Virus record (IMG/VR): IMGVR_UViG_3300033571_014509
Coordinates: 1-40,503 of that record
Strand: one strand, 5' to 3'
Source: a virus
Length of the DNA: 40,503 nucleotides
Shown here one piece after another: positions 5,371 through 40,239 of this stretch. Made by a program: the position numbers and the translations under genes. The number at the start of each line of letters is the position of its first letter. The first letter of the stretch is position 1. The notes below the pieces were generated by a model, which was not told where the DNA came from, made no database searches, and worked only from the letters and a program-made list of their open reading frames with translations.

Positions 5371-5670
5371 CTAGTAACTAGAGGGCCCGAAGATCACAGC
5401 GTTCCCGTTACGGACTCGGGTGACGGTCACGGAGCCACCATCAGGCCAGGAGATGATGCTTCCGTTGCCCTTCTCGTCGATGCGTGAGTGGTAGTTGCCT
5501 GTCTGCCTGGTGCCGTCCCTTAATGTAACGTCATAGACGGTTCCGGAGATAGTCCCAGAGATGATCTGGGAAGGACTGACGGGTAGCCCTATCGGTTGGG
5601 CACTGAGTTGCAGGGTTGCAGGGCTACAGGATAGGAGCACCGCAGGGATGATGTGTTTCAGTAGGTTCAT
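5371..5670 (-). CDS. Exported small protein with signal peptide (99 aa)
   Basis: The N-terminus MNLLKHIIPAVLLSC is a typical signal sequence. LLSC could be a weak lipobox, or cleavage could follow LSA before QPIG. The mature part is Gly/Ser/Thr-rich with a short beta pattern (GTVYDVTLRDGTRQTGNY). The hydrophobic stretch SCSPATLQLS is encoded by a degenerate copy of the 8-bp GCAGGGTT repeat found across the window, so part of the signal region may have been built by repeat insertion. It overlaps the upstream gene by 47 bp. Confidence 0.6.
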   Translation of the reverse strand: MNLLKHIIPAVLLSCSPATLQLSAQPIGLPVSPSQIISGTISGTVYDVTLRDGTRQTGNYHSRIDEKGNGSIISWPDGGSVTVTRVRNGNAVIFGPSSY

Positions 5671-10768: not shown

Positions 10769-11104
10769 TCAAGGGTTGCTATAGAGTGGGTGTGCATGAC
10801 TGTGATTTACGGTTTGGCCCATAAGGCGCAGGGTCGCTTCGATTGAGTCGATGTACTTATCGCCATACTTTTTGTAGTGCAGATGGACGAGAGGGTGGAC
10901 TTCAAGGGTGCAACCGCTTGCGGGTAACTGAGAGTCAAGCTCATCCCAGAAGCTGAGTCGCGAGTATCCCAACGGCTGGAGTATGGCGTGTAATCTGGAG
11001 TAGTTTTCGTCGAATACGGTATTCGTCCGGAACAGGGGGACGAACGCCGGATGATCCAACGCCTTAGTCGCGGTCTCGTGGACCGCTTCGTGTAACGATT
11101 TCAT
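10769..11104 (-). CDS. Hypothetical protein, 111 aa
   Basis: Starts MKSLHEAVHETATKALDHPA; the segment SRLSFWDELDSQLPASG and the His-rich end HLHYKKYG ... HSHAHPLYSNP stand out. HEAVH is an HExxH pattern at the N-terminus, but there is no matching third-ligand helix, so I do not call a peptidase. Overlaps the upstream gene by ATGA (11101-11104). Confidence 0.5.
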   Translation of the reverse strand: MKSLHEAVHETATKALDHPAFVPLFRTNTVFDENYSRLHAILQPLGYSRLSFWDELDSQLPASGCTLEVHPLVHLHYKKYGDKYIDSIEATLRLMGQTVNHSHAHPLYSNP

Positions 11105-11670
11105 TGGCGTAGTCGGGCTTTGGCAATGGCCACCTGTTGCTTTGATTCTTGGTCCTCGGTAAGAGAGAGGCCGAACTGGTGGAGATAGTGGCGGTGTGCT
11201 TCCCAGTCTAAATCGTTGACCGAACCCCTTGAGAATCGGCTGATCAACTTCTTGACGTGCCGGTCACTGGTTTCAAGGATGCAGGATTGCAGGGTCACAA
11301 GGTTGCAGAATGCAAGGTCAGGGGTGATGCGATCCACGGCGGCAACCTTCCACTTTACCGCAGCAGGCGTCTTCACTTGATCCCATCCTAGCTCAGCTCG
11401 GACATAGGAGATCCTAGGCTGTTGTGCCAAGGAAACTTCGTCCAGAACTCTGGCCACTGAGGGAGCGAGGCCCGAGCCAGTCACTACGAGGATACAGCCC
11501 AGAGAGCGATTTTTGATGGCCAGTAGGGAAGCCTTGTATCCATTCCAGATATGGTCTCGGTCGTAGGTAAGCACGTAGTCATTGAGGCGATGCTTCCCTG
11601 GAGTGTGGAATAAATCGTCGATCCAGTCGCGGGCGAGTTGAGTGTGTTTGCAATCGTTAGTATCGGTCAT
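11101..11670 (-). CDS. Phage protein, distant relative of the 17979-18647 gene (189 aa)
   Basis: Begins MTDTNDCKHTQLARDWIDDL. The LARDW start, the middle FCNLVTLQSCILETSDRHVK and the general length match the protein at 17979-18647 (LARDW; WYLVTLRSFSPTTRRHI), so I read the two as diverged paralogues. The NLVTLQS stretch is encoded by a degenerate run of the 8-bp repeat (11273-11320), which also produces part of the similarity. Function unknown. Confidence 0.55.
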   Translation of the reverse strand: MTDTNDCKHTQLARDWIDDLFHTPGKHRLNDYVLTYDRDHIWNGYKASLLAIKNRSLGCILVVTGSGLAPSVARVLDEVSLAQQPRISYVRAELGWDQVKTPAAVKWKVAAVDRITPDLAFCNLVTLQSCILETSDRHVKKLISRFSRGSVNDLDWEAHRHYLHQFGLSLTEDQESKQQVAIAKARLRQ

Positions 11671-12204: not shown

Positions 12205-12612
<408 letters not shown>

Positions 12613-12616
12613 AAGG

Positions 12617-13807
12617 TTACTTGATGTTGACCGTGTCGCCAAAGGGGGCGACTCCGGTAGGGTTGTTGTAGGCGCACCAGATGGTCGGGAACGGCCACTC
12701 GTGCGGGGGGAAGGTGCCGTAAAGATCTGTCAGATAGATCAGAACTCGGGGCGTGATGTTGTGCTGGCGAATCCAGTCGCCGACGGGACGGAAGTCTGTG
12801 CCACCGCCACCCTTGGGGGTTAGCTTGATGGTGTCACTGGGGCCGTACTCTTCGGTGGCAGCGATCGCCGCGTCGCAGTAGAGCACCGTCAACTTGCTGG
12901 GCTGGCAACGCTGCACGAGAGAGTTGATCTCGGCCTCGAAGCTGGCCAGCGTGTCGGAGCACCCATAGATACTGCCGGAGGTATCCACGGCTACGACAAT
13001 CTCACCGAGGGTCTCGTCGTGGAGGTCGGGGATGATGATGTCGTGAGGAAGGAATCGGCGGTCAGGCTTGGCCCACGAGTAGTCGTTGGCCGAGGTCTGA
13101 TCGACAAAGCGTTCGAGGATCTGTTGCCAAGGAACCTCGGGATTGACCAGCTTGTCGATGAGTGCCTCGACGCAACCTGGCAACTTACCCTGCATCTTGG
13201 CGGCGGTCGCGGCTTGGATGAGGCGGCGCTCCCACTCGCTCTTCATGTCCTCGGCACTGGTCTCGCCATCCTGAGATGCGGCAGGCTCCTCGAACTCACC
13301 CCAGCCGCCCTCGTCCTTGGTGCGCTGCTTGGACTTGCCGCCCTCGCCCTTGTCCGGTCCGGACTGGGGCTCAGGCTCGGGCTCGGGGGGCTGGTTCTTG
13401 CGAAGGTCAGCGAGCACCTGCTCGGCACTCATGCCGTCATACTTGTGGTCGAGCAACCCGCCTTCGGGCAACTCCAGCCTACGGACTCCGGCGGACTTGT
13501 TGTAGTTATCGAGGAAGTTGTTGATGCAGTAGTCACCTGCGATATTACCCTCCTTGTTCTTGGGGAGGCGGTGCAGGTGGCCGAGTGCAGGGTGAAGAAC
13601 CTCGTGGACAAGAAGACCCGCCACTTGCGATGCAGTTAGCGACTCGATGAAGTCAGGGTTGTACTTGATCACGACGCCATTGGTGCAGGCTGTCGGGATG
13701 GAAGGGTCCTCGACGCGAGGCATCTGTAGCAGAAGCGTTGCGAAGAAGGGGTGATCGAGAACGATCGTTGTGGTTGCGGATGCAATGAGTTCAGATGCTT
13801 TGGACAT
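12617..13807 (-). CDS. DUF2201-like metallopeptidase / VWA protein (396 aa)
   Basis: The N-terminal domain carries HEVLHPALGH (68-77), an HExxH with further His, as in the putative metallopeptidase half of DUF2201. A Pro/Glu/Gly/Lys-rich linker (140-185) follows. The C-terminal domain is VWA-like with an intact MIDAS: DTSGS (275-279), Thr in GGGGTDF (333-339) and Asp in YLTDLYG (358-364). MoxR ATPases and VWA proteins work in pairs, and here the ATPase (14650-15666) and a DUF3150 protein lie just upstream in the same operon. A chaperone or remodelling module is inferred; the target is unknown. Part of the linker is encoded by a degenerate copy of the TTGTCC dyad (13350-13366). Confidence 0.85.
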   Translation of the reverse strand: MSKASELIASATTTIVLDHPFFATLLLQMPRVEDPSIPTACTNGVVIKYNPDFIESLTASQVAGLLVHEVLHPALGHLHRLPKNKEGNIAGDYCINNFLDNYNKSAGVRRLELPEGGLLDHKYDGMSAEQVLADLRKNQPPEPEPEPQSGPDKGEGGKSKQRTKDEGGWGEFEEPAASQDGETSAEDMKSEWERRLIQAATAAKMQGKLPGCVEALIDKLVNPEVPWQQILERFVDQTSANDYSWAKPDRRFLPHDIIIPDLHDETLGEIVVAVDTSGSIYGCSDTLASFEAEINSLVQRCQPSKLTVLYCDAAIAATEEYGPSDTIKLTPKGGGGTDFRPVGDWIRQHNITPRVLIYLTDLYGTFPPHEWPFPTIWCAYNNPTGVAPFGDTVNIK

Positions 13808-14039
13808 AGTAGTTAGGTGGTTGAGGTAGCTCGGTGGTGAATGAGTTGGGGCTGGTAATTAGTCTCCTATGAATTTGCTTAACGCTCAGTGCGGGCGAGT
13901 AACTATCTAGGGGGTAACCATAAAGTTCGCCCGGTTCCAAGTGACTCCCACTTACAAGCCAGGCATGGCTGGAGTAACGGGAAATGTAATAGACATTCAT
14001 CCCTAATCTTCTAGCCGCCTTAATAGAGTCTTTAGTCAA
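13791..14039 (-). CDS. Tandem small protein, copy 3 (82 aa)
   Basis: Starts MTKDSIKAARRLGMNVYYIS and has SSHAWLVSGS, then SPNSFTTE near the end. It aligns by eye with the two genes just upstream (M-T-x2-x-I-x-A-x-RLG-x-x-V-[YF]; Trp-hydrophobic; a P-[HN]-[NS]-F-[TS] end) and is the most diverged copy. Overlaps copy 2 by ATGA (14036-14039) and the VWA gene by 17 bp. Function unknown. Confidence 0.6.
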   Translation of the reverse strand: MTKDSIKAARRLGMNVYYISRYSSHAWLVSGSHLEPGELYGYPLDSYSPALSVKQIHRRLITSPNSFTTELPQPPNYYVQSI

Positions 14040-14266
14040 CGGGTGCGGGGGGTTAGGGTGAAGTTGTGTGGGTAGCGTTTGATATGTTTCCGAACAGCTC
14101 TGGGTAGGATGTAAGACTGACTAGTCAGGGCTCGCACAGAGGGGTGAGTGGGTGATCCAACAAGATCCTCGGAATCAATCTTCCAACCGCCAGCGTGAGA
14201 GCCGTTAGGGTATAGGTAGACAGGGATGCCCAGTCGCAGGGTCGCACGGATCTGTTGCTCGGTCAT
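14036..14266 (-). CDS. Tandem small protein, copy 2 (76 aa)
   Basis: Starts MTEQQIRATLRLGIPVYLYP; HAGGWKIDSEDL and YPHNFTLTPRTR follow. It shares MTEQQIRA-x2-RLG with copy 1 both in protein and in DNA around the start codon (GATCTGTTGCTCGGTCAT repeated at 14249-14266 and 14460-14477), so this duplication is recent. RATLRLG overlaps a degenerate 8-bp repeat copy. Confidence 0.65.
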   Translation of the reverse strand: MTEQQIRATLRLGIPVYLYPNGSHAGGWKIDSEDLVGSPTHPSVRALTSQSYILPRAVRKHIKRYPHNFTLTPRTR

Positions 14267-14477
14267 AAGTAGTCGAGAAGTTGTGGGGTTTGTTTTGTAG
14301 GTGCCATTCGACTTGGCGGTGTGTCAGAGTTCCTCCGCACTTGTCTGTGGGGTTCCCCCAGTGACGGTCGGAGGGAGCGAGGCACGGTTTGATTTCCCAG
14401 ACGCGGCCTGTCCGCTCGGAGCGCAAGAAGACTTGCACCCCGAGACGGAAGCAGGCGCGGATCTGTTGCTCGGTCAT
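14205..14477 (-). CDS. Tandem small protein, copy 1, with out-of-frame 3' extension (90 aa)
   Basis: Starts MTEQQIRACFRLGVQVFLRS, with GRVWEIKPC and KPHNFSTT. The family end PHNF lies just before the ATG of copy 2. This copy has lost a stop there and reads on for about 20 residues out of frame over copy 2, to 14205. Overlaps the upstream gene by ATGA. Function unknown. Confidence 0.6.
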   Translation of the reverse strand: MTEQQIRACFRLGVQVFLRSERTGRVWEIKPCLAPSDRHWGNPTDKCGGTLTHRQVEWHLQNKPHNFSTTYDRATDPCDPATGHPCLPIP

Positions 14478-14650
14478 GGGTGCATACGTTGAACGGCTGC
14501 GTTTAGCTGATTGCAGCGTTTGGCCGCGTCGTACTCGGACTCGTAATTGGCTACTAACTTTTTCGCACCTTCGTCTCCGATGGCGTAGACTCGGTAAACA
14601 AGTCTGTAGTGATTGTTGGAGTCCACACACTTGAAGTAGTCGTACCGCAT
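14474..14650 (-). CDS. Hypothetical protein, 58 aa
   Basis: Start at ATG 14650 (MRYDYFKCVDSNNHYRLVYR), overlapping the last base of the MoxR-like stop. A longer frame upstream only shadows the ATPase gene. A short beta segment is followed by a helix (ESEYDAAKRCNQLNAAVQRM). No family recognised. Confidence 0.55.
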   Translation of the reverse strand: MRYDYFKCVDSNNHYRLVYRVYAIGDEGAKKLVANYESEYDAAKRCNQLNAAVQRMHP

Positions 14651-15666
14651 TAGGCGAATACCTCCTGATTCTCCGTGACCCACGTGGTGAACGCGGGGGT
14701 AGCGCACAGAGAGGTGTTGAGGTTGACGGCAGTCTTCAGTGCAAAGACTGAGAACTCCTTGGGGAAGCGATCGACGTAGGTCAGGAAGTTGGCCATCGTC
14801 TTGGGCTTCACCTTCTTGGCGAGTCCGGCGCACGTGGCGTAGATCACACTGGGATCGGTCGGCACGTCGGCCTTCTCGGGGTTGAGCAGGACGGCGTCGA
14901 GGTCGGGCAGCTTCTCGTAGACTCCGAGGAAGCCGAGGAACTCAGCCGAGGCACCGGAACCAAGCACACCCTCCAGCAGTGCGTGGCGCACGTGGCGGTC
15001 GGTGCAGGTGGCCGTGACTGTAGCGGCTTTCTCCCAAGTACGGGGCGAAGCAAAGTTGCTCACGCCGTCCCACTGGGCACCATTGAAGGTGGAGAGGAGG
15101 TCGGGGCGGAAGCGGATGAACGCGATGACCAAGGGGTCAACGCCATTCTTCTGAGCCCACCTGATCCAGCTATCCAGATCGAGGCGCACCTTGATGTTGA
15201 CGATGCGGTTCACGACTGCCGAGCTGAGCTTCTCGATGTTGACTCGATCCTCGGCGCGGTTGCCAAGCAGGCAGACGAACGAGTTCTCAGGCAACACGTG
15301 CTCCCCTACCCTGCGGTCGTTGAGTAGTTGCAGGGCTACGTTCTGCACCGCTCTCGTAGCGCAGTTGAACTCCTCTAGCCCGATGACAGGGTTAGCGGTC
15401 TTCGGCCAAAAGGAAGGCTTGGAGAAGCGCATGGTCTTGTGACCCGACTCGTCGGTGTCCAAGTACGGGAAGCCCTGCACATCCTGCGGGGCGTAGTAGG
15501 CAAGGCGGGCGTCGATGAACTCAGCACCGATCTCTCGGGCATACTCGGCGACGACAGCGGACTTACCGACTCCTGGCTGTCCTTGGATGAAGGGGTTGAG
15601 CTTGGCGGCGTGGCAGTCTTTGAGGACTTGTTTGAGCTGTGACGTTGTTACCTCGATGGTGGTCAT
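14650..15666 (-). CDS. MoxR-like AAA+ ATPase (338 aa)
   Basis: Walker A is GQPGVGKS (29-36), then DARLAYYAPQDVQGFP. The Walker B region is VIGLEEFNCA, with LEEF rather than DEE; sensor 1 is CLLGNR, followed by LSSAVVNRI, as in MoxR-type AAA+ ATPases. Known MoxR proteins act as chaperones for VWA partners, for example in inserting cofactors or activating enzymes. The VWA/metallopeptidase gene lies 0.8 kb downstream and the DUF3150 gene just upstream, a set I recall from other phages. The start leader is a 29-bp duplicate of the next gene's leader. Confidence 0.85.
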   Translation of the reverse strand: MTTIEVTTSQLKQVLKDCHAAKLNPFIQGQPGVGKSAVVAEYAREIGAEFIDARLAYYAPQDVQGFPYLDTDESGHKTMRFSKPSFWPKTANPVIGLEEFNCATRAVQNVALQLLNDRRVGEHVLPENSFVCLLGNRAEDRVNIEKLSSAVVNRIVNIKVRLDLDSWIRWAQKNGVDPLVIAFIRFRPDLLSTFNGAQWDGVSNFASPRTWEKAATVTATCTDRHVRHALLEGVLGSGASAEFLGFLGVYEKLPDLDAVLLNPEKADVPTDPSVIYATCAGLAKKVKPKTMANFLTYVDRFPKEFSVFALKTAVNLNTSLCATPAFTTWVTENQEVFA

Positions 15667-15690
15667 ATTGTTATTAGGGTTAGGGTTGTT
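15662..15690 (-). repeat. Duplicated start-codon leader, copy A
   Basis: Twenty-nine bases spanning the MoxR-like start codon and its leader are identical to 15966-15994 at the next gene's start. Both contain TTAGGGTTAGGG on the plus strand. Confidence 0.9.
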
Positions 15691-15697
15691 GAATCGA

Positions 15698-15970
15698 CTA
15701 GCAGTAGACCGAGTCGGTCTTGAACGGGGGTAGGAAGCCCCCGATCTCGTTGAGGTTGTTCTTCAGGGTGATGCCGCAATCCAACGGGTTCGCCCGAGCT
15801 TCATCCCATCGGTAGCTGTACTGACCGATCTCCTCGCCGTGTACGCAGATGCCACGGCGGCGGTGGATGAACAGCACGACGCCCCCATCGGGGAACTTTC
15901 CAAGGTAGGGATACTTACGAGGCTTGGGCTCAGTCGCTGAGGTTAGGTTGGGTTCGAGGATGGAAGTCAT
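15698..15970 (-). CDS. Small conserved-looking phage protein (90 aa)
   Basis: A low-complexity start (MTSILEPNLTSATEPKPRKY) is followed by PYLGKFPDGGVVLFIHRRRG, SYRWDEARANPLDCGITLKN and GFLPP. The YLG...VVLF ... G ... W-E ... G-ITLKN pattern is shared by small phage proteins of unknown function. It sits between the DUF3150 and MoxR-like genes. Confidence 0.6.
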   Translation of the reverse strand: MTSILEPNLTSATEPKPRKYPYLGKFPDGGVVLFIHRRRGICVHGEEIGQYSYRWDEARANPLDCGITLKNNLNEIGGFLPPFKTDSVYC

Positions 15971-15994
15971 ATTGTTATTAGGGTTAGGGTTGTT
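15966..15994 (-). repeat. Duplicated start-codon leader, copy B
   Basis: Identical over 29 bp to 15662-15690. It carries the ATG of 15698-15970. Confidence 0.9.
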
Positions 15995-16004
15995 TCAGGG
16001 TTGT

Positions 16005-16017
16005 GGTTTGTGATACC
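16005..16017 (-). promoter_or_regulatory. GGTATCACAAACC motif upstream of 15698-15970
   Basis: Minus-strand GGTATCACAAACC, 34 nt before the ATG at 15970. It abuts the TAG stop of the DUF3150 gene. Confidence 0.4.
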
Positions 16018-17105
16018 TACCAGCCAAGTTTGGCTAGGAGGGCGGCTGAATCGTTGTCCGGTCCGGACTCGGTAGCTACCGAATCAAGAGCCTCGGTGAG
16101 CGGGGTCTCCTCACTCACCGATTCCTCGGTCCATTTCTTTATGGGGGCGGTGTAGGCGGGATCGCCAACCTTGGCGTTGAGTTTAAGCGTTTTAGTCCGT
16201 GGCTTGCGGGGTGCTACTACCTTGGGTGCAGGGATGGTGCCACCGAGCGACTCGATGATCGGGGCGGCATTGCTCACGGCGTCCGAGCGGTAAACCTTGT
16301 CGTCGCGAAGGCGATCGGGGTTGCAGGTCAACCGCTGGCGGATCGCGTAGACCGCGTTAACGATCTCGTCATCCTCCAAGATGTTGAGGGTCTCGGCGCG
16401 GTCACTTGCTTTCCGAAGATTCTCGACAAGGCTATCCTTGAACGTGGCTTCAGGGTTCTGCAACGTCTCGGAGAACTTGATGAGTGGGGCGAGCAACACC
16501 TCGCGGATGTAGGGGGCAACACTCTCGGCCTTCTCCTTGAACGTCTCGGCCACCGCCTCGTTGATGGAGTCAGCGATCTCGCTAAGCACGTTGAGCTTGG
16601 CGTCACGCGGGTCAGCGATCGGGAACACGTCCAGCTTGTGATGGAAGCGGGAGACAACCTCAGTGACAGCGGGGTAGTCGCTATCCTTGAAGGTTCCGTT
16701 AAGCAGACGCTTCGCGCCTTCGAGGTAGATAATGTAGTCGTCGGCCAACTTCTTTACCAAGATTTCTCGGTCGTCGAGCAGTGGGTTCAGCGCGGCACGG
16801 AGTTCGAGGAACTTGGTAGCGGGTAGTAGTCCTACGCCTCGGGCGTATGGCGCACAGAACTTGTCGAAGGTCGAGCGGAGCTTGTTGTCGAGCTTCTCAA
16901 TCTTCTCCAGCACGTCGGCAGTAGGCAGGGTATTCTTGCGAACACTCAGCACGTTGTCGTCGGAGCGGATGTTATGGGCAGAGCGTACCTTGATACTCTC
17001 GGCCTTGTCTGTCTTGACGGGGTCGTAGCGTCCGAGGTGCAGGGCAACTAGGAGCGCGGAGCTTTTGATTTTGTCGGTGATCTGGTCGTGGGTAATAGCG
17101 GTCAT
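16017..17105 (-). CDS. DUF3150-type phage protein (362 aa)
   Basis: Mostly helical, starting MTAITHDQITDKIKSSALLV. Features include NTLPTADVLEKIEKLDNKLR, YARGVGLLPATKFLELRAAL and FHHKLDVFP. The opening K-SSALLVAL, the repeated helices and the position next to MoxR and VWA genes match DUF3150. The C-terminal 70 residues are low-complexity and Lys/Thr/Ser-rich. DUF3150 has no known biochemical role; partnership with the ATPase is inferred from gene order. Its leader shares 18 bp with the gene starting at 19416. Confidence 0.75.
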   Translation of the reverse strand: MTAITHDQITDKIKSSALLVALHLGRYDPVKTDKAESIKVRSAHNIRSDDNVLSVRKNTLPTADVLEKIEKLDNKLRSTFDKFCAPYARGVGLLPATKFLELRAALNPLLDDREILVKKLADDYIIYLEGAKRLLNGTFKDSDYPAVTEVVSRFHHKLDVFPIADPRDAKLNVLSEIADSINEAVAETFKEKAESVAPYIREVLLAPLIKFSETLQNPEATFKDSLVENLRKASDRAETLNILEDDEIVNAVYAIRQRLTCNPDRLRDDKVYRSDAVSNAAPIIESLGGTIPAPKVVAPRKPRTKTLKLNAKVGDPAYTAPIKKWTEESVSEETPLTEALDSVATESGPDNDSAALLAKLGW

Positions 17106-17150
17106 TTTGTTTTAGGGTTTGCTTGTCCGGTCTGGACAAGGGTTAAGGGA

Positions 17151-17357
17151 TCAAAGGTTGAGGGTTAGTTGATGGAGGTTAGTGTGAGGTAAGTTGATGC
17201 AGTTGCGTGGTAGTTGAATATACCCGCCGACTTTCCAATGGCGGTCGATGCGAGCGATCCATGCCCGGCAATGGTTCTGACAGCGGTATGCTTGGTCATC
17301 CCATCGCCGGAGCTGGTTGATCGCGCTCAACTGCTTCGCTTTACGCAGGGCGCTCAT
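17151..17357 (-). CDS. Small basic protein (68 aa)
   Basis: Starts MSALRKAKQLSAINQLRRWD. Rich in Arg, Trp, Cys and His (YRCQNHCRAWIARIDRHW), ending LHQLTLNL. It overlaps the upstream gene by 17 bp and is followed by a TTGTCC dyad. No family recognised; the C-terminal part looks low in complexity. Confidence 0.5.
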   Translation of the reverse strand: MSALRKAKQLSAINQLRRWDDQAYRCQNHCRAWIARIDRHWKVGGYIQLPRNCINLPHTNLHQLTLNL

Positions 17358-17727
17358 CCTTGGTTGAGGTTGCGGTTGCCTTGGCGATTGCGGCTTGTGC
17401 CTTTAGGTAGATTCGATCAAGAAGGTTTGGGGCATCGGATTCGTCGCTCTCTGCGAGTTCTTTCATAGACTGCAAAGCGGCCAGCAGATCTTTAGTAGCC
17501 TCCTCGACCGCTTTGTTGATGGCATCGTTGATGGCCGAGTCGAGATCCTCGATGTAGTCGGCGACTTCGGAGGTTTCCATCCTCTCGAAGGGTTCCCAGA
17601 TAAGGATGTCTTTGTGATCCTCGGAGACCTTTTCGAGTATGGTCTCGAAGTCGTTTTTCTTTGGGTAATCCGACAGGATAAACTCAATCGCGATCTTCTC
17701 GGAGGGTAGTAGTTTGGGATTATTCAT
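17341..17727 (-). CDS. Acidic helical protein (128 aa)
   Basis: Starts MNNPKLLPSEKIAIEFILSD. Long predicted helices (VADYIEDLDSAINDAINKAV; TKDLLAALQSMKELAES) with a net acidic charge suggest a coiled-coil or dimer. No domain recognised. Confidence 0.6.
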   Translation of the reverse strand: MNNPKLLPSEKIAIEFILSDYPKKNDFETILEKVSEDHKDILIWEPFERMETSEVADYIEDLDSAINDAINKAVEEATKDLLAALQSMKELAESDESDAPNLLDRIYLKAQAAIAKATATSTKDERPA

Positions 17728-17732
17728 AGGTG

Positions 17733-17891
17733 TTAGGAGTTAAGGACAAAGGCCAAGGTCAGACCGAACGCGGTTGCAAGGATGCAGAAGAACAGGAGAG
17801 CCAAGATGGAGTAGCTCCATTCGATCTCTCGCTTGGTCTGCTGTCGCAGGAGGTAGGGTCGGACTAGGGTGTCGAGTTCTTGTGTGGTCAT
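17733..17891 (-). CDS. Small single-TM protein (52 aa)
   Basis: ATG 17891 to TAA 17733. The polar N-terminal helix (MTTQELDTLVRPYLLRQQ) leads into WSYSILALLFFCILATAFGL, a clear membrane helix with a short tail. A longer frame on the same strand overlaps it but has no sensible composition. A start with the standard CCTAAAAC-type leader supports this frame. Confidence 0.6.
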   Translation of the reverse strand: MTTQELDTLVRPYLLRQQTKREIEWSYSILALLFFCILATAFGLTLAFVLNS

Positions 17892-17910
17892 AAACTTGTT
17901 TTAGGTTCAC

Positions 17911-17947
17911 AACTTGTTGCATGGTATATGCAACCATGCAACAAGTT
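17911..17947. promoter_or_regulatory. Perfect 14-bp inverted repeat enclosing a GGTATATGCAACC motif
   Basis: AACTTGTTGCATGG (17911-17924) and CCATGCAACAAGTT (17934-17947) are exact complements around a 9-nt spacer. The centre contains the GGT...ACC motif (17923-17935). It sits 20-56 nt before the ATG at 17891. An operator or promoter-overlapping site is likely; as RNA it would be a very stable hairpin. Confidence 0.65.
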
Positions 17948-17978
17948 TGTGGGTCATAGGGTTGTTGTCCGGACTGGA

Positions 17979-18647
17979 CTAGGCGGCAAGTAGTCGGCGG
18001 CGTGCAGGTAACGTGCTGGCAAGCACCGCGTTACGAGCGGCACGGGCATGACTGTGAGCGTGGCATTGATCTTTAGCCGCCTCGAATCGGGCGGGCAGAG
18101 TCAGGCCGAAACGCTGTATCGAGACAGCAGCTTTGTGGCACCATTCGAGGACAAACTCGAAGGGATACGGGACGCGGCTTCGCAGATACGAGGCAACATA
18201 CTCATCCAGCCACTTGATCTCGTGGTAGAACACTAGGGCACCGAGGTCGGCCTCGGTCACGCTATCGAGCAAGAGGTTTGCGCTGTAGTCCTTCACCAGT
18301 CGATAGATCTCGGAGATGCCCTGTGCGGGGAGGTCATCCACTTGAGGCAGATAGACCAGACCATCGGAAGGAATGGCTCCTCGTACCGCCTCGATATGCC
18401 GCCTTGTCGTCGGGCTGAAGGATCGCAGGGTTACAAGGTACCAGAGCTTTCCGGTGTCAGGTGCCTTCCACTTCCGAGCAATGCAGAAGTGCTGGCCGTA
18501 GGAGTAGATGCTACCGGTGACGGGGTGCCGATCGCAGGATGACCCGTAGGCAATCATCCGGTTCTTGTCGGTGTTGGCACGCTCGGTGATGGTGCCGCTC
18601 ACCCAGTCTCGGGCAAGCTCGTCGTTGTTCTTGTAGTATGTTTTCAT
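17979..18647 (-). CDS. SYGxHF-type phage protein (222 aa)
   Basis: Starts MKTYYKNNDELARDWVSGTI; the diagnostic stretch is IYSYGQHFCIARKW followed by WYLVTLRSFSPTTRRHIEAV. I recognise the iYSYGxHFxIA...T-x-SxTTxxH pattern from a large family of small phage proteins without known function. The C-terminal half (LVFYHEIKWLDEYVASYLRS and an Ala/Arg-rich tail) is not part of that motif. The stop codon is formed by the right arm of a TTGTCC dyad. Confidence 0.7.
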   Translation of the reverse strand: MKTYYKNNDELARDWVSGTITERANTDKNRMIAYGSSCDRHPVTGSIYSYGQHFCIARKWKAPDTGKLWYLVTLRSFSPTTRRHIEAVRGAIPSDGLVYLPQVDDLPAQGISEIYRLVKDYSANLLLDSVTEADLGALVFYHEIKWLDEYVASYLRSRVPYPFEFVLEWCHKAAVSIQRFGLTLPARFEAAKDQCHAHSHARAARNAVLASTLPARRRLLAA

Positions 18648-18674
18648 GGTAGGTTCGTTTCGTTATTGGGTTGC

Positions 18675-18687
18675 GGTTAATGATACC
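18675..18687 (-). promoter_or_regulatory. GGTATCATTAACC motif upstream of 17979-18647
   Basis: Minus-strand GGTATCATTAACC, 27 nt before the ATG at 18647 and immediately beside a TTGTCC dyad (18688-18704). Confidence 0.4.
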
Positions 18688-18711
18688 TTGTCCGGACAGG
18701 ACAAAGCGGGG

Positions 18712-19416
18712 TTAGATGTTGGCGCATAGCTCGATTGCGAGCTTGTCTTGGTGTTTAAGGTGGCTGTCGATGATGTACCTGGCTTCCTCGATGACATAAT
18801 CGAAGTTGCCTTTTTCGTCGGGGAAGTAGCCCCAGCAGGAGTCGATCTCCTCGCCTTCCTCGTCCTCGACGATGCGGCCAACGACATCCCCTCGCATGAA
18901 GGCGTCGTACTCGCTCACCTCTGCCTTGAGGCAACGGGTAGCCCGCTCGATGGACTCCTCCAGCGTGTCGCTGGGCCATTCCTTACGGGCTTGCTCGAAG
19001 CTGATGTAGATGTAGCCGACTTGTCCGCTGTCCCAAGGGCACGAGAACTTTCCCGTACTCATTGACAGACCGCCGTGGTCATAGAGATAGAGCGGCAGGA
19101 TGACATAATTCTTATCAACATACTCGCGGGCTTGCTTGAAGGATTCCTCATCCAACAGGCTGAGCGGGTCAAGGTAGTCGTCGTAATCGTCCGTCTCGAT
19201 ACCGAGCAACCTAGCCTTGGCTTCAAAGTAAGGTGCGGCGAGTTGCAGGATGAAATCGGTAGGCGAAGCATAGTCATGCTTCTCTCCGAGGTTATAGCGG
19301 TTGTGCCAGCAAACCATCTTGCCAGCCGGATCGCAGTCTTCGCGGGGATTCCAAGGGTCTTCGTCTTGTTCGAGTCGGATGGTGCATCCTTTGTAGGTTT
19401 CTTCGTGGTAGCTCAT
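18712..19416 (-). CDS. Conserved phage protein with LPLYLYDH and CPWDSGQVG motifs (234 aa)
   Basis: Acidic. Motifs in order: DEDPWNPREDCDPAGKMVCW near the N-terminus; YVILPLYLYDHGGLSMS; FSCPWDSGQVGYIYIS; EVSEYDAFMRGDVVG; EEIDSCWGYFPDE. I recall this exact motif order (DPWNPRE, LPLYLYDHxG, CPWDSGQVGxIY, YDxxxxGDVxG, DSCWG) from many phage genomes. It is always uncharacterised, sometimes near antirestriction genes. Complete length for the family. Confidence 0.75.
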   Translation of the reverse strand: MSYHEETYKGCTIRLEQDEDPWNPREDCDPAGKMVCWHNRYNLGEKHDYASPTDFILQLAAPYFEAKARLLGIETDDYDDYLDPLSLLDEESFKQAREYVDKNYVILPLYLYDHGGLSMSTGKFSCPWDSGQVGYIYISFEQARKEWPSDTLEESIERATRCLKAEVSEYDAFMRGDVVGRIVEDEEGEEIDSCWGYFPDEKGNFDYVIEEARYIIDSHLKHQDKLAIELCANI

Positions 19417-19468
19417 TTTGTTTTAGGGTTGAAGGGTTGCTTTGTCGCTTGTCCGGTCTGGACAAGGG

Positions 19469-19822
19469 TTAGGCATCCCAAGGCACAAGACCTTTGCGCC
19501 ATGAGACTTCGAGGGTAATCTTGCAATCATCCCATTGACTGACGGGGGAGATCTCCCACTTATCCCACTTGATGTCGCCGTCCTCGGTCTCATCAGTCCC
19601 GACATAGAGGCGGGTCTTCATGAGGCGGGCAGGTCGTGTTCCGTCCTTAGTCGTGAGGGTATGAGTGGCACCACGATCGCGTGACCAAGCGCAGGGGGCG
19701 CAATGGAACACCTCATGGGTGTGGCCGTACTCTTTCTCACGGACGATGGAGAGGGTGAAATACCCCGTTTGCGATAGCAAAGGTACTTCGCGATTGACGA
19801 AGGGATTTAAGGTCATGGGCAT
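19469..19822 (-). CDS. Hypothetical protein, 117 aa
   Basis: Starts MPMTLNPFVNREVPLLSQTG (an alternative ATG lies two codons in). Contains EVFHCAPCAWSRDRG, a CxxC-type knuckle, and a beta-rich C-terminus with IKWDKWEISP. No family recognised. A TTGTCC dyad follows the stop by 3 nt. Confidence 0.55.
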   Translation of the reverse strand: MPMTLNPFVNREVPLLSQTGYFTLSIVREKEYGHTHEVFHCAPCAWSRDRGATHTLTTKDGTRPARLMKTRLYVGTDETEDGDIKWDKWEISPVSQWDDCKITLEVSWRKGLVPWDA

Positions 19823-19853
19823 GAGTGTAATTTTGATGCTTGTCCGGTCTGGA

Positions 19854-20141
19854 CTAGTGAATCACGGGAACAGGGTTGCTAGGGAATAGGCGCTTCAGGG
19901 AAGGGCGGTCACACTTGAGGACAAACGCTTGTCCCGTACCCTTCGGGTGTCCCCACGGATTCTCCATGCGGGACACCGCTTCCTCGTCGCTATCTGCAAC
20001 AAAGCCGCCGCCACATCCGTTACCTCTGTAGCTGTATGAGTAGCGGCCTTGATCGGGGGCGTAATTGTTCTCGTCACGATACAGCTCCAGCCAGTCGTGA
20101 CCTTTAGTTTGCCAGCGGGCAATCGCAGTGGTTGAGTCCAT
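19854..20141 (-). CDS. Hypothetical protein, 95 aa
   Basis: Start at ATG 20141 (MDSTTAIARWQTKGHDWLEL); the frame stays open upstream through the 8-bp repeat array, but that extension is repeat-encoded. Contains GRYSYSYRGNGCGGGFVADS and GQAFVLKCDRP. The TAG stop lies in the right arm of a TTGTCC dyad. Confidence 0.6.
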   Translation of the reverse strand: MDSTTAIARWQTKGHDWLELYRDENNYAPDQGRYSYSYRGNGCGGGFVADSDEEAVSRMENPWGHPKGTGQAFVLKCDRPSLKRLFPSNPVPVIH

Positions 20142-20386
20142 AGGATTAGTGGATAAGAGGTGCAGGGTTGCAGGATTGCAGGATTGCAGGATTGCAGGAT
20201 TGCAGGGTCGCAAGGTTGCAGGGTCGCAAGGTTGCAGAGTAGGGAGTCCGTTTCGGAATCAAGGGGGCTACCCTCAGCAATGGATTGCGCTAGTTTTTCG
20301 GCTCGCTCCAAGCGTTCGGAGCGTGAGGTGGACGGCACCCAGCAAAAGCTGAAGTCGTCGGGATTGTGGTCGTTGTAGGTTGGCAT
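19895..20386 (-). CDS. Small protein with repeat-driven read-through (164 aa as read; about 50 aa native)
   Basis: Start at ATG 20386 (MPTYNDHNPDDFSFCWVPST). The native part is about 50 residues to SETDSLLC. From there the frame runs through the 8-bp repeat array (NLATLQPCDPAILQSCN...) and then out of frame over the 5' half of the downstream gene to 19895. The tail is almost certainly an artefact of repeat expansion that removed the original stop. Its leader shares 18 bp with that of the gene at 38782-38976. Confidence 0.5.
   Translation of the reverse strand: MPTYNDHNPDDFSFCWVPSTSRSERLERAEKLAQSIAEGSPLDSETDSLLCNLATLQPCDPAILQSCNPAILQPCTSYPLILWTQPLRLPAGKLKVTTGWSCIVTRTITPPIKAATHTATEVTDVAAALLQIATRKRCPAWRIRGDTRRVRDKRLSSSVTALP
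20160..20240. repeat. Ten-unit array of an 8-bp repeat, GCAGGRTY
   Basis: Consecutive units read GCAGGGTT, GCAGGATT (four times), then alternating GCAGGGTC and GCAAGGTT, ending GCAGAGTA. Single or double degenerate units occur near 5605-5630, 11273-11320, 14235, 15325, 18420, 21029, 24522, 25125-25150, 25240 and 25465-25495. Confidence 0.9.
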
Positions 20387-20403
20387 GGTCGTGTTTTGCG
20401 CCA

Positions 20404-20680
20404 AAGGCGCAGGTTCATTTTTATAGGGTTGCCCCGCACTTGCTGGCGGCAGGGCTTAGCCGTTGGAATCTGATGGATCGACTTGCTGGCGTTGATCTGG
20501 CCATTAGCTTTTAGCTCCCGACTGGCTGGCTAGGGTGTTGGCCGTAACTCGTATGAGTTTGAGTCCCACTTTCCTTCCAACTCTGGACACCATTCGAGAC
20601 CGCTGGGGTCATGGGGTCGGGGCTAAAGATGATGTAAAAGTGTCGCGGTTAATGATACCGAGCCGCTTGTCCGGACTGGA
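20404..20680. other. Gap of about 280 bp with a small hairpin and no gene
   Basis: GCGCC-AAA-GGCGC (20398-20410) is a short hairpin near the start of 19895-20386, and a GGT...ACC motif lies at 20647-20659 with no obvious gene for 260 bp downstream. No tRNA folds well here. A short untranslated RNA from that motif is possible. Confidence 0.3.
20647..20659 (-). promoter_or_regulatory. GGTATCATTAACC motif, gene target unclear
   Basis: Identical to the copy at 18675-18687 and, like it, located just downstream of a TTGTCC dyad. The next minus-strand ATG (20386) is 260 nt away. Confidence 0.35.
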
Positions 20681-20764
20681 CTAGGCGAAGAGGCAGAAGA
20701 TGATGAAGGCGCAAAAGGCTGAGTAGAGAGCGAAGCCAAGCGCGTTGAGTAGGATCGGGGTCAT
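20681..20764 (-). CDS. Tiny hydrophobic membrane peptide (27 aa)
   Basis: ATG 20764 to TAG 20681 gives MTPILLNALGFALYSAFCAF followed by IIFCLFA, almost entirely hydrophobic. The TAG is the right arm of the dyad at 20667-20683, as in three larger genes, and a GGT...ACC motif lies 22 nt upstream. The gene architecture therefore supports it despite its size. Confidence 0.55.
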   Translation of the reverse strand: MTPILLNALGFALYSAFCAFIIFCLFA

Positions 20765-20786
20765 AATTTGTTTAAGGTTGAATTGT

Positions 20787-20799
20787 GGTTGCATATACC
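20787..20799. promoter_or_regulatory. GGTTGCATATACC motif between divergent genes
   Basis: Lies 22 nt before the minus ATG at 20764 and 32 nt before the plus ATG at 20832, so it could serve either or both. Confidence 0.4.
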
Positions 20800-20831
20800 G
20801 GCAGAAAGTGATAAGGCAAGTGGTTTCGTAT

Positions 20832-21533
20832 ATGAATCAACTAAACGTGCCTTGGGATAAGATTAAAGACGCGGTAGAATCTGGGATGCCCATGCGCCAA
20901 GTTGGAGAGTTGTTTGCCATCAAACTACCTACGATCAAGGCGAGGAGCTTGAGGGAAAAGTGGTCTACGCCGAAACGCCGTTCGGATGCATTGAAAAAAG
21001 AGTTATCGGAGAAGGGTAACAGAGTAGCAGGGGTGCAGGATCGCATGGTTGCAATCAACAATTCCTTGGAAGAACAGATGAAGGACGCGGAAGATGGTCA
21101 AATATCTACAGCGAGATCGAAAGTGGTTGATTTTGACCAAGCGACTAAGGATTACCGGAGCAAAGGCGTTCTCAAGATGGCAAAGCTACTCGATCAAACG
21201 ATTATTGCGCCCCCTCGCACTTGGAAAGACTACGACATTGCTGACAAGATGATGAGGAGACTGCTAGGCATTGACGACAACGAAGGGAAATCCAACACGA
21301 TTGTTAGTCTACAACTAGTCAACGATCGCTTGGCCGCAGGGCGGCAGGATGACATCGTAGAGGGCGATTTCATCGAGGAAAGTGTCCCCGAGGCGTCATT
21401 TTCTGACCCTCTACAGAGTAAATTGACGGGTGCCAAGTCCGCTCCCCCTTCCGGTGAAGTACCGGAAGAGGGTCAGGGCTTGTCCGGACTGGACTATTCT
21501 GCCGACTCGCCAGCCTCGAGGGCGGCAGAGTAG
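20832..21533 (+). CDS. HTH protein, terminase-small-subunit-like or regulator (233 aa)
   Basis: Start at ATG 20832 (MNQLNVPWDKIKDAVESGMP). An N-terminal helix-turn-helix (MRQVGELFAIKLPTIKARSL), then REKWSTPKRR, resembles the DNA-binding end of phage terminase small subunits and relatives (VxxGMSxRxxAExFGVxxxTxxxRxxREKW). The middle is helical (GVLKMAKLLDQTI; DIADKMMRRLLG), and the tail is Pro/Ser/Gly-rich. It is a lone plus-strand gene inside a minus-strand block, and its last 40 bp overlap the 3' end of 21494-21886. A transcriptional or packaging role is possible. Confidence 0.6.
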   Translation: MNQLNVPWDKIKDAVESGMPMRQVGELFAIKLPTIKARSLREKWSTPKRRSDALKKELSEKGNRVAGVQDRMVAINNSLEEQMKDAEDGQISTARSKVVDFDQATKDYRSKGVLKMAKLLDQTIIAPPRTWKDYDIADKMMRRLLGIDDNEGKSNTIVSLQLVNDRLAAGRQDDIVEGDFIEESVPEASFSDPLQSKLTGAKSAPPSGEVPEEGQGLSGLDYSADSPASRAAE

Positions 21534-21886
21534 GCGCGGCGTAGAGCTACGTTTGCGTTGTCGGCGGCCAGCTCTACAGCCAACTCAACGAGTTGGGCAA
21601 TGATCGCCTCGTCTATGACGATCTTATTCTTCACAGTGGCGGCACGTTCGCGGATTCCAAGGGCGAGGAAGATCTCGGAAACCCTCTGCTTGGGAACCTT
21701 GTGAGCCGTGACCAGCTCCTTGCGAAGAGCCTTCAAAAGCTCCTTCTTGTTGTCCTTGTCAGATTCAACAAGAGCCTTGACGGCTTTCTTGGCGGCTTCA
21801 AGGGCTTTGTCGTAACCAAGGTGAATCTTGGCAAATTCGGCGACGATGACGGCGGTGGACTCGATGGTGATGTTATTGTTGTTCAT
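21494..21886 (-). CDS. Helical protein (130 aa)
   Basis: Start at ATG 21886, after the normal leader type; an upstream in-frame ATG (21953-21955) would add 23 residues encoded partly by a TTGTCC dyad and is less likely. Asn-rich start, then long helices (YDKALEAAKKAVKALVESDK; NKKELLKALRKELVTAHKVP). KVPKQRVSEIFLALGIRER looks HTH-like. The TAG is formed by the dyad at 21480-21496. Confidence 0.6.
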   Translation of the reverse strand: MNNNNITIESTAVIVAEFAKIHLGYDKALEAAKKAVKALVESDKDNKKELLKALRKELVTAHKVPKQRVSEIFLALGIRERAATVKNKIVIDEAIIAQLVELAVELAADNANVALRRAYSAALEAGESAE

Positions 21887-21961
21887 TTCAGTAGTGTTGT
21901 TGGATGTTTTAGGTTGAGCTTGTCCGGACTGGACAAGCGGTTTCTCTGTAGTCATTTGACT

Positions 21962-22012
21962 CCAGAAGTCTGCCCCCTATGTTATTTAGTAACAAAGGGG
22001 CAGGGTTTCTGG
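21962..22012. ncRNA. Three-segment 51-nt hairpin
   Basis: CCAGAA (21962-21967), TGCCCC (21971-21976) and GTTA (21981-21984) pair in order with TAAC (21990-21993), GGGGCA (21997-22002) and TTCTGG (22007-22012). The loop is TTTAG and the internal loops are small. Sixteen base pairs in register are unlikely by chance. Direction unknown. Confidence 0.5.
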
Positions 22013-22031
22013 TTTCAATAAATCGAGTTCA

Positions 22032-22067
22032 CAAGGGGAAGGTAAAGCTATTTACTCCCCCGCCTTG
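22032..22067. ncRNA. Second hairpin, 36 nt
   Basis: CAAGG (22032-22036) pairs with CCTTG (22063-22067) and GTAAA (22042-22046) with TTTAC (22051-22055) around a GCTA loop. G-rich and C-rich tracts between them can extend the stem. It lies 20 nt after the first hairpin. Confidence 0.4.
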
Positions 22068-22332
22068 CTACTTGCGTCGAGCGCCCTGCCGCCTTTTCAT
22101 CACTGACGAGGAGGCAACCTACTGGACTGATCCAGTGCCTTTCCCCGTGATGTTGGATTGATCATTCACAGGACTAACGCTTTGACGGCTTAGCTTGAAG
22201 GGCTTCCACTCCACCCTTCCGCTTGCGGCCTATGTTTCCACCGCCTTTCCCCCTTCCATGCGTACCTCGTTCCCAAGGGGTGCGAAGCAAGTTTCAGAGT
22301 TCAAGAGCGGCCTAGCCGACTGCCGTTTTTAG

Positions 22333-22382
22333 ACTGTTGCGGGTGATGTTCTGAAGGCAGCACCCGCTCCACCTTCAACAGT
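22333..22382. ncRNA. Third hairpin, 50 nt with two stacked stems
   Basis: ACTGTTG (22333-22339) pairs with CAACAGT (22376-22382), and directly stacked CGGGTG (22340-22345) with CACCCG (22361-22366). A 15-nt loop and a 9-nt bulge on one side remain. Thirteen pairs in total. Confidence 0.5.
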
Positions 22383-22557
22383 TAATGTCCACCCCACCCA
22401 TTTCCGGCTTGTCCGGTCGGGACAAAGGGGCCTCACGCGCGCGTCGCGTTCGTTAGAGGCAGACCTACCGGGGGTGGGGTGGGGAGTGGGGTAGGCCGCT
22501 CAGCTTCAAGACGTTACATATATACGCTTGCAAAAAAAAAGTTTCAAAACTTGCTCA

Positions 22558-25404: not shown

Positions 25405-25474
25405 AGCCCTGCATCACTAACACCAGATATAACGTACTCCCGAACATTATATTAGGGTTAAGTGATGCAGGGCT
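25405..25474. repeat. 14-bp perfect inverted repeat across the AT-rich segment
   Basis: AGCCCTGCATCACT (25405-25418) and AGTGATGCAGGGCT (25461-25474), with a 42-nt loop. It borders the AT-rich stretch and the 3' end of the minus-strand operon at 25521, so an origin stem or a terminator-like element are both possible. Confidence 0.6.
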
Positions 25475-25520
25475 ACAGGGTTGCAGGACTGCACTTAACA
25501 GGTTACTTAATTATTGGCAG

Positions 25521-39060: not shown

Positions 39061-40239
39061 TTATTCAACAGATACCCCTTTTGGGGTGATACCGAACCAC
39101 TTTTCGGCGTAGTCGGGCAGTACCAAGCCCCGGTAATTGCTCTTGATCATCTCAGGGCTGTTTCCGCATTCCTCTGCGACGACTCCGGGACTGGCGTCCG
39201 TCTGAGCCATCCGAGCTGAAATGTAGCCTTTACGCAGGGCATTATCTTTCCACTGCACCCCTGCGGCCTTGGCGATGTCCGGAGTGAATTTGTGGATTTG
39301 ATCCTCGGGGTATGGGGAGACCATGCCTTTTTTCTCCCCCTTATGGTTCTTGAGCCAAGCGATGAGGTTGTCAGGCATGATAGCAAGCCGTCCGCTTTCG
39401 GTCTTCGTGATCTCGGGGCCGAGGCGGATGCGTTTTTGATCCATGTGGATGTCCTCCCACGTGAGTCGGCAGGTTTCCGAAATACGCACCCCAGCAAAAG
39501 CACCGATGGCCAGTAAAGGCACGAACCGGGGTTCTGCGTGGGTCAGCAGCTTCTCCATCTCCTCGGGGGTGTAGAGGACGATTTTTTTCTTTTTCTCGGG
39601 GTAGCTTTTGATCTTGGTGATCTCCAGATCGCCTTTTGGCAGATACTCGCCGTATTCCTGAGCCCAGGTGAAAAATGTACGTACATAGCTCAAGTGGTTG
39701 TTGCGAGTCTTCCCCTCCTCGGAGAGACCCCTGAAATACCCGTCCAGTTCTTTGACGGTGATTTTGTCGAGCGTCTTGTTGAAGGCCCTGCCGAACTTGA
39801 AGAGGATCGACTTCGCAGTCCGGTAGTGGCGGCTCTTGGTGTCCGTGAATTTTTTCAGGTACTCGGTGACCGCATCGAGCGCCGAGATCTGCTTGCTGGC
39901 TTGCTTGGCTTTATGGGCGAGGAAGTACCGGACGGCATCCCCAATCGTGGTTCCATGCTCGGCGAGCAGCTTCTCGTACTCCGCGAGCAGGACGGCTTTC
40001 TCCGAGGAGATGTCTTGTCGCAAGACCAGCCCACGCTTGAGGTCGTCGAGGATCTCTTCGGCTCGCTGGTGTGCCTGAGTCTCGTCGGCAAAGCCTTTTC
40101 GCTGGCGTCCATTCTCATTGACCCAGGCCACCACGTACCTCTCCCCGTCTGGGGTTTTGTTGCGGTAGATCTTTACGCTTCCGAAGCGGGTCTTCTGGAC
40201 AAACGGATACTCAATAATAGTGCGTTTTTTCGTGGTCAT
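39061..40239 (-). CDS. int: Tyrosine recombinase / phage integrase (392 aa)
   Basis: An N-terminal arm-binding and core-binding region (TDTKSRHYRTAKSILFKFGR-type helices) is followed by the catalytic domain: RISETCRLTW (Arg I), KTESGR (Lys), NALRKGYIS (Arg II; the usual preceding His is Asn), ECGNSPEMIKSNYRGLV (the usual His is Asn; Tyr nucleophile). The C-terminal form GNSPxMIxxxYRxLV recalls integrases from Verrucomicrobiota-like hosts. Catalytic Arg-Lys-Arg-Tyr are all present. It reads away from a possible attP at 40417. Confidence 0.93.
   Translation of the reverse strand: MTTKKRTIIEYPFVQKTRFGSVKIYRNKTPDGERYVVAWVNENGRQRKGFADETQAHQRAEEILDDLKRGLVLRQDISSEKAVLLAEYEKLLAEHGTTIGDAVRYFLAHKAKQASKQISALDAVTEYLKKFTDTKSRHYRTAKSILFKFGRAFNKTLDKITVKELDGYFRGLSEEGKTRNNHLSYVRTFFTWAQEYGEYLPKGDLEITKIKSYPEKKKKIVLYTPEEMEKLLTHAEPRFVPLLAIGAFAGVRISETCRLTWEDIHMDQKRIRLGPEITKTESGRLAIMPDNLIAWLKNHKGEKKGMVSPYPEDQIHKFTPDIAKAAGVQWKDNALRKGYISARMAQTDASPGVVAEECGNSPEMIKSNYRGLVLPDYAEKWFGITPKGVSVE

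Follow-up and report, generated by a model that had tools for sequence, protein, structure and literature searches.

An array of ten 8-bp units, which cannot be a product of chance, lies at the junction of two minus-strand genes of an uncultured bacterial virus, and it is probably a non-triplet repeat that grew by slippage at the 3′ end of the small upstream gene, with the read-through tail of that gene incidental and nearly neutral. The window, by which we mean the whole stretch of DNA analysed, is one virus record of 40,503 bases.

The octamer array and its flanking genes

The array occupies positions 20162-20241, as determined with a tandem-repeat scan and shuffles, and its unit reads GCAGGRTY on the plus strand and RAYCCTGC on the coding strand. 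On the plus strand the units run GCAGGGTT, four copies of GCAGGATT, two copies of the pair GCAGGGTC GCAAGGTT, and GCAGAGTA. A prior sequence-only reading had described ten GCAGGRTY units; the count of ten holds for the period-8 array, but the strict consensus is found in seven units only, two being GCAAGGTT and the tenth, GCAGAGTA, being decayed. The units stand head to tail with 85% matches and four consecutive units are identical, as in a VNTR, and the TRF score of 98 is the highest in the window. A two-unit pattern, allowing at most one mismatch, has 15 matches in the window versus 0.06 expected, and none of 100 shuffles had as many.

Two blocks within the array have been homogenised, one in 8-bp and the other in 16-bp steps, which points to repeated past slippage in this lineage. 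The block of four GCAGGATT units (20170-20201, plus strand) is the most slippage-prone part of the array, while the doubled 16-bp dimer (20202-20233, plus strand) is a sign of an earlier duplication in a 16-bp step. The decayed final unit (20234-20241, plus strand) is an array end that is seen again in arrays of marine phages. We also considered secondary structure, but claim none: RNA and DNA folding produced TGCA-based hairpins, but their z-scores are too high, since the repeat is lost on shuffling.

As the sequence-only reading had it, the array separates two minus-strand genes, the ORF that starts at 20386 and its neighbour at 20141-19854. The part of the upstream gene that precedes the array (20242-20386, minus strand) comprises 48 codons from the ATG at 20386, and the downstream gene (19854-20141, minus strand), which begins 20 bp past the array, encodes 95 residues (MDSTTAIARW...) between an ATG at 20141 and a TAG at 19854. 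Both are orphans: the upstream gene had no Pfam, PHROG or viral match, the downstream gene had no Pfam or PHROG match and no relative in viral contigs or phage records, and neither gene led to a near sister phage in those two collections. Relatives of the DNA polymerase were found at 80 loci, with at most 43% identity, and the array was absent from the stretches compared; likewise, in two contigs (L173 and L174) with a 48-50% identical relative of gene 18712-19416, no clear homologs of the two flanking genes were found beside it.

By a codon log-likelihood trained on confident genes of the same phage, the upstream gene before the array scores +0.12 per codon, with its other frames negative, and the downstream gene is coding-like at +0.09 per codon over 82 codons; both scores lie inside the 5-95% range of in-frame segments. 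The frame of the read-through scores -0.21 per codon, within the out-of-frame range of -0.49 to -0.13. Both flanking genes thus look coding by codon usage and the read-through tail does not. A Shine-Dalgarno-like leader is missing from most minus-strand genes of this region, so that the leaders permit no judgement on translational coupling.

Array length and the ending of the upstream gene

The minus-strand ORF from the ATG at 20386 runs without a stop up to and through the array and terminates at a TGA at 19897-19895, giving a present-state ORF of 163 residues (19895-20386) that reads through the array and overlaps the neighbouring gene out of frame by 247 bp, in close agreement with the roughly 250 bp of the sequence-only reading. 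The octamer unit is free of stops in all six frames, and therefore the array prolongs the upstream ORF at any length and its length modulo 3 alone sets the ending of the gene. When we simulated changes of -8 to +4 units, the present length class returned the 163-residue ORF with its out-of-frame tail; gain of one unit or loss of two led to a TAA (20146-20148, minus strand) about six codons beyond the array; and loss of one or gain of two fused both genes in frame. The claim that each gain or loss of 8 bp shifts the frame is therefore arithmetically right, with three distinct endings, although the in-frame fusion had not been part of it. The related claim that the array abolishes a stop can be kept only in part: the TAA at 20148-20146 does exist in another frame, but that it was the ancestral stop is presumed, not seen.

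Like contingency loci, the array has a unit length that is not a multiple of three and is located at an ORF. What is absent is a coding-like ending in the present state, as the tail falls in the non-coding range and hence is without visible protein-coding selection; the fusion ending would be coding-like, but it is not the present state. The best-fitting sequence of events is that replication slippage grew the array in the gap between the 3′ end of a minus-strand gene and the next gene and that, with 8 being coprime to 3 and the unit being open, its length modulo 3 would then pick a stop some six codons on, a fusion or an out-of-frame run. On this view the tail and its changes would be by-products of little selective consequence, and no switch would have been selected. 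We infer slippage at 20162-20241, as the single record holds no second allele. Should the array slip in the phage population, nature would supply a clear example of one gene whose stop, fusion or overlapping tail is chosen by array length modulo 3.

Octamer arrays in other viruses

Octamer arrays of this kind do slip in viruses. At one locus in near-identical contigs, the array of GCAGGGTT has 12 units in L008, 15 in L011 and 28 in L009; identity between L008 and L011 is 99.8% across 9.6 kb, and L009 equals L008 exactly along the left flank that was compared. In two further contigs from the same virus (L007 and L013) the contig ends within the array. These five contigs would be well suited to a measurement of how such arrays slip in natural populations of a virus. 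Length differences in exact 8-bp steps, as indels, also occur at one junction (J1) of a group of marine phages. Another pair of contigs, L010 and L012, is identical over 2,960 bp and its arrays are identical too.

The marine group emerged from a scan for two units followed by the end GCAGAG, which returned 74 contigs, 68 of which encode a relative of the small terminase subunit, TerS (phrog_51). The TerS relative is usually beside a nuclease-like gene with a best match to phrog_2165, which we take to be VRR-NUC-like. Of the remaining six contigs, two retain a partial nuclease gene where the contig ends and two have other genes in common with the group; in the last two (L230 and L246) the match lies within a helicase ORF. 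Marine octamer-array contigs include L175, L177-L192 and L206-L267, and in many of these contigs the arrays occupy several gene junctions in succession near terS; runs of three to five such junctions, all on one strand, were found, with five in L175 (1626-4428).

The array at the convergent junction supplies the final codons of the nuclease-like gene, so that dozens of contigs encode tails such as SATLRPCDPAVL. In one subgroup all 12 contigs have three units in this array, and tail lengths are similar in the rest. The tail residues alternate between T and A and between D and G as the octamer alternates between GTC and GCC; the amino acids drift while the octamer stays, from which it follows that it is the octamer, and not the peptide, that is kept. 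Furthermore, in L222, L227, L234 and L236 the nuclease gene stops earlier and the array is still present. Taken together, the near-fixed length, the drifting residues and the presence of the array outside the gene argue for a DNA or RNA element of which the C-terminal tail is a by-product. A terminator-like stretch (GC followed by T) just precedes the array in 74 of 97 cases versus 12% at random positions, although the motif is crude and the contigs are related. In L014, whose TerS is only about 35% identical, the array lies between terS and the nuclease gene.

The nearest isolates by TerS are the distantly related Pelagibacter phages HTVC027P and HTVC023P. The octamer is absent from the terS region of both, and other short repeats are found there instead (HTVC027P, L268, 2340-2376 and 3135-3268; HTVC023P, L269, 4568-4664). 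Repeats near terS in the cultured pelagiphages comprise a 7-bp CAAGCNN array overlapping the gp32 end and, directly after terS, about three copies of a 33-bp repeat. We found no function described for octamer arrays adjacent to terS in the literature searched, including PMC9599517. An octamer array kept at gene ends by terS in dozens of uncultured marine phage contigs, without a described function, is of wider interest.

Further scans bear on how special the octamer is. Among 84,980 bacterial and archaeal genomes, 78 stretches turned up across unrelated phyla, a pattern of sporadic origin that singles out no host. A three-unit scan of viral contigs returned 24 contigs and the reversed control octamer 13, which weakens any notion of a special enrichment in viruses.

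How does the array in the window compare with those of the marine group? Both have a GCARGRTY unit (GCARGRYY in its broader form), both are in coding-strand orientation at a gene 3′ end and both close with GCAGAG, and both encode tails of the type TLRPCDPA, LATLQPCDPAIL in the window and SATLRPCDPAVL in the marine contigs. In contrast, the marine arrays mostly have two to four units, conserved in position and length, versus ten in the window; they are often by terminator-like sequence, whereas we found no terminator or promoter context at 20162-20241; and their genes differ from those of the window. A helical, HTH-like protein encoded at 20832-21533 on the plus strand, about 590 bp from the array, is a candidate small terminase subunit, with a match to phrog_509 at E = 0.055 only and no phage match; its structure model is of low confidence (pLDDT 54), too poor for a structure search. 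The window phage otherwise shares with the marine group one gene at 46% identity and a weak helicase match. There is a modest chance that the array is an expanded member of the marine junction element.

Possible explanations for the array

What could have led to an array of this length at this junction? Growth by slippage, with an incidental tail, is favored by the two homogenised blocks, by the 15 dispersed and decayed matches versus 0.06 expected, by a non-coding tail beside coding-like genes and by the length-variable arrays elsewhere. Against it, at most four identical units stand in a row, meaning that the present slippage rate may be low, and the same octamer at gene ends of other phages hints at a function at the level of DNA which a neutral repeat does not need. 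Alternatively, the array may be a cis-acting, iteron-like DNA element such as that beside marine terS, i.e., a site for regulator binding, a terminator-linked site or a packaging site, whose overlap with the gene end is incidental. We regard this idea as somewhat unlikely for the window, even though within the marine group it draws on the TerS relative in 68 of 74 contigs, on arrays at three to five successive junctions, on the preceding terminator-like stretches (74 of 97 versus 12% at random positions), on octamers that stay while residues drift and persist outside the nuclease gene in L222, L227, L234 and L236, and on L014, with the array placed between the nuclease gene and a terS whose product is only about 35% identical. 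The window array itself has the marine unit, ends in GCAGAGTA and is roughly 590 bp from the candidate terS. However, the window phage has little else in common with the marine group beyond the 46% gene and the weak helicase match, its terS is only a candidate, the array has no terminator or promoter context, the orientation of the arrays relative to terS varies among lineages, and by the control scan (13 contigs versus 24) this octamer does not stand out among viruses at large. A broader proposal, that a (GCARGRYY)n-GCAGAG iteron-like family would be kept at gene ends around terS by divergent lineages, would serve packaging or transcription boundaries and would incidentally write C-terminal tails, having here grown to ten units with the gene ending under slippage control, is distinctly doubtful. 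A cis-element common to the window and the marine phages is nonetheless the most interesting open reading.

The suggestion of the sequence-only reading that the array is a slippage switch of the C-terminus has the frame arithmetic on its side. As a selected, phase-variation-like device, array length would toggle the upstream protein among a short version, one joined to the neighbour and one with the out-of-frame tail, or would alter translational coupling. In its favor, length modulo 3 gives three endings, including a clean fusion in frame, and changes in the length of octamer arrays do occur in viruses; octanucleotide SSRs of Haemophilus influenzae (PMC2651432), which have 1 to 15 copies, are putative phase-variation tracts. 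The window array resembles such contingency-locus SSRs in its non-triplet unit, in which a change of copy number shifts frame or spacing, a likeness drawn from sequence alone; it differs in being at the 3′ end of a phage gene, after all 48 codons, where it alters an ending and provides no on/off control of expression. Moreover, the present tail is not coding-like, the comparable C-terminal array of the marine phages hardly varies in length across dozens of contigs, a point against C-terminal switching as a general role, and neither gene matches a known family, so that no surface, tail-fibre or modification role is indicated. Use of the array as a switch is possible but unsupported, and we consider a selected one improbable. 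Least probable is that the array length was misassembled in this metagenomic contig, for although there is a single record and no second assembly, short reads are usually longer than 80 bp and the heterogeneous units anchor the assembly. Growth by slippage is thus the reading that we prefer.

Among repeats known from phages, the microsatellites surveyed in mycobacteriophages, with mono- to hexanucleotide motifs (PMC6426759), likewise consist of short units in tandem and fall mostly in coding DNA, but the unit in the window is 8 bp and has dispersed, decayed copies. Stoperators and other dispersed phage operators (PMC9283540) are also short repeated sites in the gene junctions of one phage; each is a single conserved site to which a known repressor binds, whereas the window array is tandem.

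Other repeats in the window

The octamer recurs in this phage at and within genes, with decayed period-8 copies at 5607, 11273-11320, 18417, 21019-21050, 25246 (minus strand) and 25467. The degenerate array at 11273-11320 (plus strand, about six units) lies within the minus-strand gene 11101-11670 and is open solely in the frame of that gene, and degenerate units at 21019-21050 (plus strand) lie within gene 20832-21533. A short copy of about two units at 5607-5625 (plus strand) is outside any long minus-strand ORF, and the degenerate units at 25467-25493 (plus strand) lie where long ORFs are absent.

The window also holds a near-palindrome, CTTGTCCGGWCTGGACAAG, at ten sites that all fall within 13.3-22.4 kb (13349-22426), several of them at gene ends or starts: 13349, 17122, 17964, 18687, 19448, 19839, 20666, 21479, 21919 and 22408. 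With up to three mismatches it has 18 matches on both strands versus 0.02 expected, and it resembles the dispersed sites of an operator or stoperator. An integrase-like protein is encoded at 39061-40239. Different octamer-like repeats (TTCCCACT and GCCTAACA) are present at gene junctions of L173 (5693-5722 and 3557-3584) and L174 (3874-3903), and the first of these sits between a stop and the next start. Lastly, a perfect (AGT)13 at 12568-12606 encodes 13 threonines just after the start of the minus-strand gene 12609-12205, and the alignment with its 46% identical relative in L175 begins only past the threonine run.
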